A DNA stretch of 64,000 nt from Gemmatimonadales bacterium (GTDB lineage: Bacteria; Gemmatimonadota; Gemmatimonadetes; Longimicrobiales; Gaopeijiaceae). The stretch's first letter is position 1. Every line of letters starts with the position of its first letter. Below, piece after piece: positions 18,236-24,678 of the stretch. A model generated the notes under the pieces. That model did not search any database, was not told the DNA's origin, and saw nothing but the letters and a program-made list of their open reading frames with translations. Position numbers and translations under genes: made by a program. The DNA lies in NCBI GenBank assembly GCA_007695225.1, contig REED01000173.1:62001-126000 (forward strand), read 5' to 3'.

Positions 18236-19411
18236 CTACCCTCGGGGCCCGGGAGGGTCAACCTCGCCCCGGCGCTCGCCGGGAAATCCTCCGATGGGAG
18301 GGTGGGGGGGCGGGCCCCACCATGCCGGGGTGTCCGGAGGCTCGGTGGCCCGGAGTTGGGCCATCCGCTCTCGGTCCCGCTTCTTCCGGATCCGGAAGAG
18401 GACCAGGAGTGCCATGCCCAGCAGGACCCAGAACACGAAGGACTGGGAAAGCACCAGCACCCACCCGAACCGGCGCTTCACGTGCTCCAGCCACTGCCGC
18501 TCGAAGGTCCCGGTGGTGATCCCGAAGGTCCGACGGAAGGCCTCTTCGAAGCTACCCATCTCCCGCCATCGGGCCAGAAAGAGTTCCAGCCCCCGCTCCC
18601 CGCTCCCTTCCACCAGATAGCTCACCGCGGTGGCCGCCAGGAGATAGGCCAGTTCCGCTTCTCCCCGCTCCCGGGGCCAGGACAGGGAAATGGAGTCCAG
18701 GGGAGGGGCTCCGCCCCCCGCGAGGGAGAGGCGCAATCGCCAAGCCGAGTTGCGGTCCCACCCTCCCGAGGACCACTGGGCATACCCCTCGTCGAACCAT
18801 CGGGGAATCTGAAGTCCCTGGAGGTGGTCGTGGAGCCCCAGATGCGCCCATTCGTGGAGGAGGGTCCGGTCCTCGGAACCCTGGCCCGTCCATGGTTGGG
18901 AGAAGAGGGGGATGACAATGCGGTCACGGGATGGGATGGCCACCCCGGCTCCCCAGTGGGGGACTCTCCCACCGGTGAGGGCATCGAATCGGGCCTGGTC
19001 CGGAGCCAGGAAGATCACAGCTCGTCGGGGCACGTCGGGAGGGAGCCCGGGAAGCCACGGATTCCGCTCCAGTATGGCCAAAGCCCGATTCGCCCTCCCC
19101 TCCCCCCCCGCCCAGTGGACGATGCGCAGGCGGTCGTGAAGTACGGAATCGCCAGGGATCAACACCCGGGCGTCGTCGATGCCCGGGACCTCGGGGGGAA
19201 GGAGGAGGTGCACGGGAAAGGAGCCGGGGCCGGGAGCTTCCGCCTCCTGCTCCTCTCCCTCCGGAAAGGTGTCCGGTCCGGGTGGGACGGCCCCCTCTGC
19301 GTGAAGGGGCGCCAACCCAGGGAGAAGCCCGGAAAGGATGAGCGTCACCGCGAGAGTGAACGACATCCGGCCCCCTCCACCCCGGTCGGTCCCCCGAGCG
19401 GAGGGCGTCAC
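18236..19411 (-). CDS. Peptidase MA-like zinc metallopeptidase with C-terminal TM
   Basis: LLHEWAHLGLHDHL...PRWFDEGYAQW (HExxH + downstream E); signal peptide; C-terminal TM; GTGA overlap with upstream gene. Confidence 0.8.
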   Translation of the reverse strand: MTPSARGTDRGGGGRMSFTLAVTLILSGLLPGLAPLHAEGAVPPGPDTFPEGEEQEAEAPGPGSFPVHLLLPPEVPGIDDARVLIPGDSVLHDRLRIVHWAGGEGRANRALAILERNPWLPGLPPDVPRRAVIFLAPDQARFDALTGGRVPHWGAGVAIPSRDRIVIPLFSQPWTGQGSEDRTLLHEWAHLGLHDHLQGLQIPRWFDEGYAQWSSGGWDRNSAWRLRLSLAGGGAPPLDSISLSWPRERGEAELAYLLAATAVSYLVEGSGERGLELFLARWREMGSFEEAFRRTFGITTGTFERQWLEHVKRRFGWVLVLSQSFVFWVLLGMALLVLFRIRKKRDRERMAQLRATEPPDTPAWWGPPPHPPIGGFPGERRGEVDPPGPRG

Positions 19412-21036
19412 CTGCCTGCCGAGGCCTCGGAGGTTTCCAGGTTCGTCCGGACCACCTCGTTTTGTGGATTCAGTTCCAGCGCCTTCCGCCAGAAGTGGGT
19501 GGCGTTCTCCCGATCCCCGTCCTTGTAGGCCAGGTTGCCCAGTTTCAGGTACACGTCGTCCCCCAGGCGAGCGTCGATCCGCACCGCCCGTTCGAAATGG
19601 GCCCTGGCCCCGGCCTGATCCCCCCGGCGGTAGGCCAGGTCCCCCAGGTTCTTGTGGGCTTGGGCCGGCGTCGGGGACTGGGAAACCGCCCGGAGGTAGA
19701 GGGCCTCGGCGGCGCCGTTCTCACCCCGGTACTCGAGGAGCGCCCCCAGGTTCACCAGCACCGCGCCGTCCTCGGGATACTGGGTCAGACCCTCCCGCCC
19801 AAGCCGGAGGGCCTCCTCCCAATCACCATCCGCTGCTGCCGCGAGGATGGCGAAAGCGTAGAACAGGGACCGCGGGGAAACGCCGTCAGGGAGGGCTGCC
19901 CGCACCCTTCGGAAGGCCTCTCGGGCCCGGCGGACCTTCCGGTCCTTGAAGAGGACAATGCCCCTGGCCAGATGGGCCTCCGGATCTCCGGGGCGCAACT
20001 CCACCGCCCGCTCCAGGAGGAGGAGGGCCTCCTCGTGACGCTCCAGGAGCTCCAGGGCAAAGGCCCGGTTCCGGATAGCCGCGTAGGAATCCCGGAATTC
20101 GGATGGGGAGCCGGCGAAGTGGTCCAGCGCCTCGGCCGGGCGCCCCTCCCGGAGGGCCAGGATGGCCAGACGGCCCCGGGCCGTCCCCTGGCGGGGATCG
20201 ATTTCCAGCGCCGACCGATACTCCCGGGCGGCATCCTCGAGCATCCCGGCTCGCTCGTACGCCGCCCCGAGGGAAAGGTGCTGTCCCATCCCTGCGGCCC
20301 GCCCCTCTTTCCGGGGGGCTTCCCGCTCCCCCACCCGCTGTGCAAATCCGGCCTGTGCCAGGCCATACACTGCCTTTGCCGTATCAAATTCCACCAGACC
20401 GGATTCGGCCACCAGCTCCGCCACCGACCGGCTTCCGTCCAGGAGGGGGAGGATCTTCTCCTGCTCCGGGGTCAACTCCACCCCTTCCTCTTCTTTCGGA
20501 TCCCGCTCCAGCGCGAAGATCAGCTCCATGGAGGAGACCTTCTTCTGGATGAAGGACCACTCATCCACCCGGCGAGCACCCTCCAGGAGAAGGCTCTCGG
20601 TATTGATGCTCACCGGAACCATCCCCTCCTCCTGGGGGAGCTCGTCGGGATCGAAATGGAAGGACCCTCGCTCCCACGCAAAGAGGTGGTAGACGGCCTC
20701 GGCGATCTGGATGCTGATATATCGGACCAGTTCCTCCTCAGTGAAGCTGCCCTGGTCCACAAGGATCCGGCCCAACCGTCGTCCCGGCTCCCGGGCCTGC
20801 TGTTCCATGGCCGCGGAGAGTTCGTCCCGGGTGATGACCCCGTTCCGCACCAGGAGCTCTCCGAGACGATCCGGGCGATTCAGGACGTTGGCATACACCA
20901 CCCTCCCACCGTCGAAATAGATATATCCGAAGCTGGATCGGTCCGTCACAGTGAGACACCCGGTCTTCCTCCCCATGGCCAGGAGTTGGCAGATGTCCGC
21001 CAGACCCACGTCCTCCAGTTGCCCCTCAATCGCCAT
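19408..21036 (-). CDS. DUF4388 (PATAN-type) + MshEN-like + TPR protein
   Basis: IEGQLEDVGLADICQLLAMGRKTGCLTVTDRSSFGYIYFDGGRVVYA; LGELLVRNGVITRDELSAAMEQQ...LGRILVDQGSFTEEEL; C-terminal TPRs. Confidence 0.85.
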   Translation of the reverse strand: MAIEGQLEDVGLADICQLLAMGRKTGCLTVTDRSSFGYIYFDGGRVVYANVLNRPDRLGELLVRNGVITRDELSAAMEQQAREPGRRLGRILVDQGSFTEEELVRYISIQIAEAVYHLFAWERGSFHFDPDELPQEEGMVPVSINTESLLLEGARRVDEWSFIQKKVSSMELIFALERDPKEEEGVELTPEQEKILPLLDGSRSVAELVAESGLVEFDTAKAVYGLAQAGFAQRVGEREAPRKEGRAAGMGQHLSLGAAYERAGMLEDAAREYRSALEIDPRQGTARGRLAILALREGRPAEALDHFAGSPSEFRDSYAAIRNRAFALELLERHEEALLLLERAVELRPGDPEAHLARGIVLFKDRKVRRAREAFRRVRAALPDGVSPRSLFYAFAILAAAADGDWEEALRLGREGLTQYPEDGAVLVNLGALLEYRGENGAAEALYLRAVSQSPTPAQAHKNLGDLAYRRGDQAGARAHFERAVRIDARLGDDVYLKLGNLAYKDGDRENATHFWRKALELNPQNEVVRTNLETSEASAGR

Positions 21037-21099: not shown

Positions 21100-23154
21100 T
21101 CACGGAAGGGACTCCCGACTCTCATCGTCCACAATCCGCTCGTCGAGTCCGCGCCAGACCCATACCACCTTTTCCGGGGAGGGGAACCAGTGAGTTTCCC
21201 CCTCTTCTTCGACTTCCGCGTCGTCCTGACGGCCGCCTTGGTTCAACGCCTCCTGTACCAACCCAATTGATCCATCGTCGAAGGTGTCCTCCGTTCCTAC
21301 CCCGGCGTATGCCCGGAGGGCGGCCAGGACCTCTTCGCTTCGCCCACCGTCTTCGTCCCTGACCCGCTCTCCCTCTGGAGGAGAAGGCGCGGTGGTAGAG
21401 TGCGGAGAGTGGCGGATGGGATCCGTCCGGTCCGCGGGATCCCGGGAGCCATTTCCGTGTCCCTGTTCGTCTCCCTCCGAATCCCGGGTCCGGGTGGCGT
21501 CCACCTTTGGCGGCTCCGCCCCCGGATCCCCTTCCCCGTCGCTTCCCCGGCCGAGCTCGGTGACGAGGCCACCCTCGAAGCGGGAACGGAGACGATCATC
21601 CACTCCCTGAATGGCCGACGGCCTTCGGTCCGCCGCCAGGAGGACCCGAGCGCCTCTTCGTTTCAGGGCCTCGAAAAGGTGGAAGAACTCCTCCTGTGAG
21701 CGCTCCGTGTTGGACAGGTCCTCCACCCCGTGGAGCAGGAGGAGGTCCACCGTCCACCATCGTTCCCTCCAGGCCCCGGCCACACCATCGGAGATGGCCC
21801 GGATGAACTCATCGGAGAACTGGCGCACCGAGATGAAGCCGATTCGTGCCGAGGGGCGACGGGCCTGGAAGGTGCGGCCGATGGCTTCCAGAAGATACCG
21901 GGCCCGCCCCGGCGTGGGGGAATGGAGATAGAGGGGGTTGTACTCCGGCCGATCCCCCGCCAGGACACGTTCGGCCGCTCGGATGGCCAGTGCCGGGAAG
22001 GTCCCGGAAACCCCCTCCAGCCCTGAGCCCGAGGGGAGATCAGGAAAGGGACGGGCCCGCTCCCGGGCCGACGAGACCAGTGCCTCGGCGTCATCGAGGC
22101 GGTCGGGGTCCCTCAGCACCGCCGCCGCGGCATCGGGCCAGGGGTTCCCCAGGTCGTCCAACTCACGGCGAATGGACCGGACCCGCTCCACGTCGGCATG
22201 GAAAGCGTCCAGGATTACCCTCCACCTCTCGGGTTCCTCCCCCTCCGGCGTCCGCTCCAGGAGTCGGTGTAGGCGATGGGCCGAGAAACCGGCGACCGCC
22301 ACTGCCTCAGCTGCCTCCCGGAATGCCCGACGCCATTCGGGCTCCGCCGCGGCCGTGGATCCCCCGGAAGACAGGGACCCCTGGGATCCGCCCCCCTCAT
22401 GTCCTCCCAGCGCCCTGGCGAATTCTCCCACCCGCTCCTCGTCCCCTCCACCCAGGATGACGGGAAGCTCCTCCACTGCCACCGACCGCTCCTCCAGGTC
22501 CTGGACGGCCAGGATCCGATTCAAGGCACCTTGGAGTTCACGAACGTTCCGGAAAGGGAAACGCGCCATGGCTTGGGCGACTCCTTCCGCCAGATTCCCG
22601 CCACGCTCCTCCACCTTCCGGTGCATGATGGCCACCCGCGTTTCGTAGTCGGGCTGACCGATATCCACGATGAGGCCGCCGGAGAACCGGGAGAGGAGTC
22701 GCTCATCCAGTCCGTCAATCTCGGCGGGAGGACGATCCGAGGCCAGAACCACCTGGCCCTTTCGGGAAGCCACCTCGTCCAGGGTGCGAAGAAGCATCTC
22801 CTGGGCCTGTCCCTGGCCGGTAAGGAACTGCACATCGTCCAGAAGGAGGATGTCGGCGTCGCTGTAGCGGGCCCGGACATCATCCTCCACGCCGCGCTCC
22901 AGGTCCCTCATCAGGTCGTCCAGGTAGCCCTCGAGGGTCTGGTAGACAACCTGGACTCTGTCCTCGGCCCGCAGGGCGTGCTGCGCGATGGCGGAGAGGA
23001 TATGGGACTTTCCCAGCCCCGAGGCGGAATAGAGGAAGAGGGGATTGTAACTGGCGCCGGGAGACTCGGCCGATCGTCGCGCGGCGGCGAAGGCCAGGCG
23101 ATTGGCCGGCCCCACCACGAAGGTCTCGAAGGTCATCCGGGAATCGTGGATCAT
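21100..23154 (-). CDS. Tandem DnaA-like AAA+ protein (second module degenerate)
   Basis: Module 1: FETFVVGPANRLAFAAA, YNPLFLYSASGLGKSH, ILLLDDVQFL, RLLSRFSGGLIVDI. Module 2: YNPLYLHSPTPGRARYLLEAI, VDLLLLHGVEDL, DDRLRSRFEGGLVTEL. Start at MIHDSRMTF. Confidence 0.88.
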   Translation of the reverse strand: MIHDSRMTFETFVVGPANRLAFAAARRSAESPGASYNPLFLYSASGLGKSHILSAIAQHALRAEDRVQVVYQTLEGYLDDLMRDLERGVEDDVRARYSDADILLLDDVQFLTGQGQAQEMLLRTLDEVASRKGQVVLASDRPPAEIDGLDERLLSRFSGGLIVDIGQPDYETRVAIMHRKVEERGGNLAEGVAQAMARFPFRNVRELQGALNRILAVQDLEERSVAVEELPVILGGGDEERVGEFARALGGHEGGGSQGSLSSGGSTAAAEPEWRRAFREAAEAVAVAGFSAHRLHRLLERTPEGEEPERWRVILDAFHADVERVRSIRRELDDLGNPWPDAAAAVLRDPDRLDDAEALVSSARERARPFPDLPSGSGLEGVSGTFPALAIRAAERVLAGDRPEYNPLYLHSPTPGRARYLLEAIGRTFQARRPSARIGFISVRQFSDEFIRAISDGVAGAWRERWWTVDLLLLHGVEDLSNTERSQEEFFHLFEALKRRGARVLLAADRRPSAIQGVDDRLRSRFEGGLVTELGRGSDGEGDPGAEPPKVDATRTRDSEGDEQGHGNGSRDPADRTDPIRHSPHSTTAPSPPEGERVRDEDGGRSEEVLAALRAYAGVGTEDTFDDGSIGLVQEALNQGGRQDDAEVEEEGETHWFPSPEKVVWVWRGLDERIVDDESRESLP

Positions 23155-23158
23155 CCGT

Positions 23159-23698
23159 TCATCCTCCCGACTCCAGGGGACGGGCATCGGAGCGGTTGGT
23201 TTCCGAAAGCGACTGCTGCTTGGCGGCCTCGAGGCTACGCTCCAGGGTGGCCTCGAAGTCCCGGGGGTCATCTACCGACACCGCTGGAGGGGGCAGCTCC
23301 TCCCTGATCCTTTCCACCAGTCGCTCCACGAAGGCACGGGCATGCCGTCGCTCGTCCCCGGTCAGGACCAGGAGGAGAATGAGGGTTCCCGGGCGGGGGA
23401 GAGGCACGAGAAGGAGAGTGCGATCTCCTGCCCCCACTGTGATCCATGCCCTCCCCGGATCGCCGGAGGCCTCGGAGAGCCGGGCGCCGGTGGCGTGCAT
23501 GGCCGCCACCAGGGAGGCCACCTGACGGAGACGGGATGGGTCGTCCAGTCCCCGATTCTCCACAAGGCGCCCCGCCCGGTCCACCAGGACCGCCGACTCC
23601 ACCCCGGGGGCAGTCTCCAGCGGAGGTAGGAGGGGATCCTGCTTGCCCTCCGCCAGGGGCTCCTCCGCTCGACCCTCCTCCCGCCGGGGCATCCTCAA
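23159..23698 (-). CDS. Roadblock/LC7-like domain protein
   Basis: VESAVLVDRAGRLVENRGLDDPSRLRQVASLVAAMHATGARL...LLVPLPRPGTLILLLVLTGDE; TTG start (TTGA overlap) or ATG 23692. Confidence 0.7.
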   Translation of the reverse strand: MRMPRREEGRAEEPLAEGKQDPLLPPLETAPGVESAVLVDRAGRLVENRGLDDPSRLRQVASLVAAMHATGARLSEASGDPGRAWITVGAGDRTLLLVPLPRPGTLILLLVLTGDERRHARAFVERLVERIREELPPPAVSVDDPRDFEATLERSLEAAKQQSLSETNRSDARPLESGG

Positions 23699-24678
23699 CG
23701 ACGCTCCCCACGGGCCCAGCCCGCCACTTCATCCAGATCGGGAGGGAGGGGCGCCTCCCACTTGACCACCTCCCCGGTAACGGGATGACGAAACGCCAGT
23801 CGGTATGCGTGAAGAAACTGCCGCGGGACCCTCCGGGCCAGCTCCCGGGCCCATTCCCGGTCCGGCCCACCCATCCCCCGCTCCCACCCTTCCCCGTAGG
23901 TCGGATCCCCCACCACCGGGTGTCCGCGATGGGCCAGGTGAACCCGAATCTGGTGGGTCCGACCCGTCTCCAGGGAGAGTTCGAGGAGCTCAGCCGCCGG
24001 CCACCGCTCCACCACCCGCGCGTGGGTCACCGCACGCCGACCACCCTCCACCACCCCCATGCGCTTCCGATCCCTGGGGGACCGGGCGATGGGCGCATCG
24101 ATCCGAAGGGGGGACTCGGGGAGGTGGCCCCAGGACGCGGCCAGGTAGAGTCGGCGCACCTTCCGTTTCCGGAGGGCCGCGGAGAGGGCCCGGTGGGTGT
24201 CGTCATCCTTGGCCACCACCAGGAGCCCCGAGGTGTCCCGGTCCAGGCGGTGGACGATCCCCGGGCGGAGGGCGCCACCGATTCCCGCCAGATCCCGGAC
24301 ATGGTGGAGGAGTGCGTTCACCAGGGTCCCGGAGGGGTGCCCAGGCGCCGGATGCACCACCATCCCCGGAGGCTTGTTCACCACGGCCAGGTGAGGGTCC
24401 TGGTAGACGATCTCAAGAGGGAGATCCTCCGGCTCCGTGCTCAGACGCACCGGCGCGGGGACCTCCACCTGGATCCGGTCACCCTCGGAAAGGGGCTCGG
24501 ACTTCCGGGGGGTATCCTCGTTCCAGCGCACCCGGCCCTCCTCCACCAAGCGGGCCACACGGGTCCGGGAGAGATCCAGCGCCTCGGCAAGCCACCGATC
24601 CAGACGCTCTCCAGCTCCTTCCGGAGGAACGATCAACTCCCGGTGATGGGACTGAGGGGATGGTGGCGAGTTGGTCAT
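23695..24678 (-). CDS. rluD: RluA-family 23S rRNA pseudouridine synthase
   Basis: S4-like N-terminus, HRLDRDTSGLLVVAK, LETGRTHQIRVHLAHRGHPVVGD. Confidence 0.93.
   Translation of the reverse strand: MTNSPPSPQSHHRELIVPPEGAGERLDRWLAEALDLSRTRVARLVEEGRVRWNEDTPRKSEPLSEGDRIQVEVPAPVRLSTEPEDLPLEIVYQDPHLAVVNKPPGMVVHPAPGHPSGTLVNALLHHVRDLAGIGGALRPGIVHRLDRDTSGLLVVAKDDDTHRALSAALRKRKVRRLYLAASWGHLPESPLRIDAPIARSPRDRKRMGVVEGGRRAVTHARVVERWPAAELLELSLETGRTHQIRVHLAHRGHPVVGDPTYGEGWERGMGGPDREWARELARRVPRQFLHAYRLAFRHPVTGEVVKWEAPLPPDLDEVAGWARGERR

Follow-up and report, generated by a model that had tools for sequence, protein, structure and literature searches.

A tandem DnaA-derived AAA+ protein of Gemmatimonadota, encoded among polarity-type genes and possibly serving small-GTPase signalling

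The described systems closest to the locus treated here come from two fields. The first are the MglA/MglB polarity systems that include PATAN proteins, among them that of M. xanthus with MglA and SgmX: PATAN genes have been reported near homologues of MglA and MglB, Group 1 MglA is known from Gemmatimonadetes (both PMC4316618), and two PATAN proteins were among the candidates of an M. xanthus pilus study (PMC11580455). The second are the replication initiator DnaA, whose domain III forms head-to-tail assemblies in which each protomer's Arg finger touches the ATP of its neighbour (PMC5742627), and Hda (3bos, 5x06), a DnaA AAA+ domain without domain IV that consists of a single module of about 230 aa and an N-terminal clamp-binding motif. 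The locus discussed below lies in a window of 64,000 nucleotides, the whole stretch of Gemmatimonadales DNA that was analysed. It resembles the Mgl systems in that an MglA-type GTPase, a roadblock protein and a PATAN protein are encoded together in its relatives, and differs from them in that a DnaA-type component, which does not figure in PMC4316618 or PMC11580455, is a fixed member of the cluster. In the literature on DnaA paralogues in Gemmatimonadetes, on DnaA with MglA and on DnaA with PATAN, coverage of which was incomplete, we found no description of such a protein. On balance, we lean towards the view that this DnaA-derived tandem AAA+ protein serves small-GTPase polarity or motility signalling, together with MglA, roadblock, PATAN-MshEN-TPR and Che proteins, and not chromosome replication.

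The protein is encoded by a single open frame of 684 codons and a stop, whose ATG follows a GGGAGG stretch and lies 4 nt past the stop codon of the upstream roadblock gene (Table 1). An earlier note, made from the letters alone, had proposed two DnaA-like AAA+ modules, and this was borne out by Pfam, PDB sequence, AlphaFold and Foldseek comparisons alike, with all the motifs that it quoted being present. Pfam Bac_DnaA matches the protein with 271 bits over two stretches, and in a per-genome search with the same model the scores were 169 bits for module 1 and 110 bits for module 2, both far beyond chance. The AlphaFold prediction is confident for both modules and for the helical linker, with the tail being disordered; module 2 modelled alone reached a pLDDT of 94.6 and superimposed on B. 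subtilis DnaA domain III with a TM-score of 0.92 and 1.7 Å rmsd (Foldseek), which excludes the outcome that the second module is not AAA+. In the Foldseek search of the tandem protein, tandem AAA proteins were listed below DnaA and Hda; these, represented by p97/Cdc48 and Rix7, also carry two AAA+ modules per chain, but belong to another AAA clade, show about 13% identity and low TM-scores to our protein, and stack their own two modules as rings.

Table 1. Features of the tandem AAA+ gene and its neighbours, in window positions (res, residues of the tandem protein)
Feature	Position	Strand	Basis or remark
Peptidase MA-type gene, end of conserved f1 block	18236..19411	(-)	domain match, locus comparison
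PATAN (DUF4388)/MshEN-type/TPR protein, 542 aa, downstream, likely partner	19408..21036	(-)	domain matches; 40/40 loci
Tandem DnaA-type AAA+ protein	21100..23154	(-)	open frame, Pfam, AlphaFold
C-terminal motif WFPSPEKVVWVWRGLDERIVDD, res 656-677	21124..21189	(-)	W656 39/44, W667 41/44
Low-complexity tail, res 541-654, predicted mostly disordered	21193..21534	(-)	pLDDT mostly <55
Module 2, res 384-537, DnaA AAA+ core without lid	21544..22005	(-)	sequence, AlphaFold, Foldseek
Module 2 box VII Arg521 and Arg finger Arg525, kept, res 521-530	21565..21594	(-)	44/44 each
Module 2 Walker B position, degenerate, res 468-480	21715..21753	(-)	reads LLLLHGVE
GVAGAWRERWW, f1-specific near-invariant motif, res 457-467	21754..21786	(-)	f1 alignment
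Module 2 Walker A position, degenerate, res 405-422	21889..21942	(-)	reads SPTPGRARYLL; lost 17/17 f1
Helical linker domain, res 273-367	22054..22338	(-)	conserved even where module 2 absent
Module 1, complete DnaA domain III including lid, res 5-236	22447..23142	(-)	Pfam, NCBIfam, PDB sequence and fold matches
Module 1 sensor 2 RNVRELQGALNR, res 202-213	22516..22551	(-)	R205 (in NVREL) 41/44
Module 1 box VII Arg152 and Arg finger Arg156, res 152-161	22672..22701	(-)	R152 41/44, R156 44/44
Module 1 Walker B ADILLLDDVQF, res 100-110	22825..22857	(-)	D106, D107 44/44 rows
Module 1 Walker A YSASGLGKSH, res 42-51 (GLGKSH = 46-51)	23002..23031	(-)	K49 44/44 rows
Roadblock/LC7 gene, upstream, 179 aa	23159..23698	(-)	PF03259
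RluD-type pseudouridine synthase gene, conserved f1 flank	23695..24678	(-)	profile match

Compared with DnaA, the tandem protein has two modules per chain, a helical linker and a C-terminal motif, and is without domains I and IV. Domain I is absent, module 1 starting within the first residues; the claimed lack of domain IV is confirmed by an alignment to TIGR00362 that covers only positions 105-330 of 437, and Pfam gave no match to the DnaA C-terminal domain. The tail is acidic, as had been noted, and ends in a conserved tryptophan-rich motif, which is found 3-4 residues from the C-terminus in members of families f1, f2 and f4-f6 (f1 being the window's own) and is confined to the tandem protein within the scanned loci. 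Two further features complete the architecture: module 2 lacks the lid/sensor-2 subdomain, and the helical domain between the modules is conserved, with Pfam and PDB profile searches for homologues of this linker returning scattered chance-like matches only.

The two modules differ in how much of DnaA domain III (PF00308; 8bv3, 2hcb, 3r8f) they retain. Walker A, Walker B, Arg finger (within RLLSRF) and sensor 2 are all present in module 1 only, which also shares the fold and box VII, whereas the likeness of module 2 is one of fold and Arg finger (within RLRSRF). The proposed loss of both Walker motifs from the second copy is real, as is the match of its Arg-finger region to that of the first. 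Judged by its alignment, module 2 of f1 is a partner module without nucleotide motifs and with a conserved Arg finger (Walker A in 0 of 17 proteins, R525 in 44 of 44). The dN/dS ratios of module 2 in the three closest f1 pairs (0.10, 0.03 and 0.06) led us to reject decay and indicate that this dead module is under purifying selection. Of the suggestion that an active and an inactive module form a built-in regulatory dimer, what stands is that the pair exists, that selection keeps it and that a regulatory role is plausible; what does not stand is the active-plus-inactive state as the basic design, since in families f4-f6 nucleotide motifs are kept in both modules and several lineages are without module 2. 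An unlikely alternative is that the protein is a structural adaptor only: its AAA+ modules would no longer cycle, it would hold the PATAN-MshEN-TPR protein as a rigid scaffold, and module 2 would be kept for its surface. It would suit the strongest f1-specific conservation in module 2, which falls on a surface-type and not a catalytic motif (GVAGAWRERWW), as well as the loss from module 2 of the nucleotide motifs in f1 and of parts in f2, but it sits poorly with module 1, where K49, D106, D107 and R156 are kept in 44 of 44 sequences and the sensor 2 residue R205 in 41 of 44.

The architecture recurs within the phylum. Dozens of Gemmatimonadota genomes, most of them metagenome assemblies, carry the tandem; the families compared are coded f1 to f11, with record titles giving Gemmatimonadota and in some cases Longimicrobiales. 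A frameshift or artificial gene fusion was rejected as its source, the one-frame tandem recurring in many assemblies. Module 2 varies considerably among the families. Among the 19 f4-f6 proteins tabulated, its Walker A is present (one with Arg for Lys) and its Walker B intact in most, and most f4-f6 members have a lid with a sensor-2 region, absent in L117 and L123; f2 proteins have lost the lid, and 6 of 8 retain an intact Walker A; in f1 both Walker motifs and the lid are gone. Module 2 has disappeared altogether in f3 (L034) and f9 (L183), where module 1, the linker and the C-terminal motif are what is left, and the g87 member of f5 (L186) is likewise reduced. In this last protein (L186:6995-7825, genome G127) module 1 has a shortened stretch between Walker A and Walker B, followed by the linker and the C-terminal motif; it represents an independent loss of module 2. 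In a tree of 103 modules, the first modules form one clade (support 100/99) and the second modules another (100/98), with DnaA between them, so that a single origin of the tandem, ahead of the split of these families, is the simplest account; the dead second module is a derived state. A scan of a genome collection returned Gemmatimonadota records, two ordinary DnaA genes (L114, L116) and one record labelled Gammaproteobacteria (L105), for which wrong binning is the probable cause; the patterns of the scan were narrow, and the f5 genomes, too, escaped them, so that absence from other phyla does not follow from it. A plasmid search listed only brief stretches resembling the AAA+ portion of the protein, mostly annotated as dnaA.

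The intact second modules bear on another alternative, which we regard as highly improbable: that the protein is a DNA- or nucleoid-binding polarity factor whose module 2, by binding either single-stranded DNA or the chromosome, couples polarity to the nucleoid or the cell cycle. Arg245 of E. coli DnaA binds single-stranded DNA (PMC5742627), and at the place of DnaA Lys243/Arg245 module 2 of f4-f6 has, by inspection, GKERTQ, with the equivalent Arg485 kept in f1 (42 of 44). Module 1, however, has lost basic residues of the Lys243/Arg245 type, the protein has no domain IV, and module 2 is wholly absent from some lineages.

The gene neighbourhood speaks for the polarity view. The PATAN-TPR gene follows the tandem gene directly and on the same strand in all 40 loci compared, across six families, and its MshEN-type stretch is visible in the loci where the frame was matched. 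Outside f1, an MglA-type GTPase gene lies directly upstream in 30 of 31 loci, and the position of the tandem gene between mglA and the PATAN-TPR gene is fixed in five of the six families examined (f2-f6). The order there is TPR, PATAN, TPR-roadblock, roadblock, MglA, tandem gene, PATAN-TPR, CheR, CheD, CheB, CheW, TPR and peptidase, with individual loci missing some genes and with the roadblock neighbours named by sequence likeness, Pfam having given the f2 example no score. The tandem gene is placed among MglA, PATAN and Che genes, apart from the true dnaA, and the linkage of MglA, roadblock and PATAN genes that characterizes a Mgl/PATAN/Che polarity-type system is present. The f1 locus is reduced to IleS, RluD, roadblock (in some), the tandem gene, PATAN-TPR and peptidase; IleS-RluD precede MglA in the f5 genera g82 and g135, which suggests that f1 lost the intervening genes in place. 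The window genome itself has a PilB-PilT-PilC cluster on C161. The only MglA gene found in it lies outside the f1 locus (L160:7252-7830, on contig C48 of G000), near dnaX and a pgsA-like gene. In the window, residues ~57-110 of the PATAN-TPR product carry an MshE-related motif of the c-di-GMP-binding type (NF053729, 56.6 bits against a cut-off of 38), and the protein may, from this match, be a c-di-GMP effector.

Co-occurrence within f1 points in the same direction. MglA (at 1e-60) was found in 33 of 37 f1 genomes with the tandem gene against 3 of 57 without it, and at least two PilT-family genes in 34 of 37 against 2 of 57; the 94 genomes are mutually related, the Fisher values are descriptive only, and presence was scored on the best six candidates per genome, so that some absences may be wrong. 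The same contrast for MglA and PilT is seen within single genera, for example g21 (G020 versus G158) and g6. As far as gene content goes, MglA and pilus ATPases co-occur with the tandem gene in f1 as in a polarity-type system, and the PilT part of this pattern may track pili in general. The loci of g60 (L179, L180) and g82 (L185, L188) are similar except that they have no tandem gene, and there the PATAN-TPR protein has lost its MshEN stretch. In G022 (L145:2735-5887) the tandem and PATAN-MshEN-TPR proteins form a single in-frame fusion product of 1051 aa. This natural fusion and the conserved C-terminal motif mark the PATAN protein as the likely partner of the tandem protein. Against the polarity reading count the exception of g135 (L181), which keeps MshEN without the tandem gene, the lack of MglA from the f1 locus, and the confinement of the fusion to one assembly.

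These data also bear on a role in replication. The earlier note had considered both replication control and a non-replicative role; the complete DnaA of the window genome itself (on C194, with a domain IV tail) and the MglA, roadblock, PATAN and Che neighbourhood speak against the former and for the latter. A replication regulator that contacts the cell's own DnaA through head-to-tail AAA+ packing, in the manner of Hda, and reduces initiation or sets its timing is, in our estimate, decidedly unlikely. Such a regulator would fit the DnaA-type interface residues kept by both modules and the presence of Hda among the fold and family matches. Yet the placement as Hda-like fails, with no clamp motif of the Hda (QL) type near the N-terminus of any of 49 proteins, with the Hda model scoring 113 bits, far below its cut-off of 194.8, and with a chain of 684 aa and two modules where Hda has one; the neighbourhood and co-occurrence partners are MglA, PATAN, Che and PilT, and many genomes keep DnaA yet have lost the tandem gene. 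The window protein reaches 368 bits, and an f5 member (L118:5300-7213) 514 bits, against TIGR00362 (cut-off 343.9). Both scores exceed the cut-off of this NCBI DnaA equivalog, so automatic annotation probably names both proteins chromosomal replication initiator; as a practical warning, genomes with the tandem gene are likely to list two genes under the DnaA name, with only one of the two encoding the initiator.

Our best reading is that the tandem protein would be an ATP-switched scaffold of a Mgl/PATAN/Che polarity (type IV pilus) system, and we infer its mechanism as follows. Module 1 would bind ATP and assemble head-to-tail like DnaA. Module 2, expected not to bind nucleotide, would present an Arg finger to the ATP bound in module 1 of the same chain or of a neighbour and so act as a fixed regulatory partner; with box VII Arg and Arg finger kept and nucleotide motifs lost, it would serve only one side of the interface. 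The absence of module 2 from several lineages indicates that the core role can be filled without it. The ATP state may be relayed through the linker and the C-terminal peptide to the PATAN-MshEN-TPR protein, and perhaps also to MglA or roadblock, and the PATAN-MshEN-TPR protein would then set polar type IV pilus activity or motility, as gene order, fusion and co-occurrence suggest. More tentatively, it is possible that duplication of a replication initiator's ATPase, and its recruitment as an ATP-driven switch, preceded the split of the sampled families; the switch would connect the MglA GTPase and the chemosensory proteins, together with a PATAN-MshEN-TPR effector of the c-di-GMP type, to polar type IV pili, and in one family module 2 would have become a dedicated Arg-finger donor.

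With a natural series of two intact modules, one intact and one dead, and one alone, what the second module does becomes open to direct test. If the polarity role is true, the DnaA ATPase has been reused outside replication, in Ras-like GTPase control of polarity and pili, and the tandem protein would represent a type of polarity component in bacteria that has gone unrecognised.
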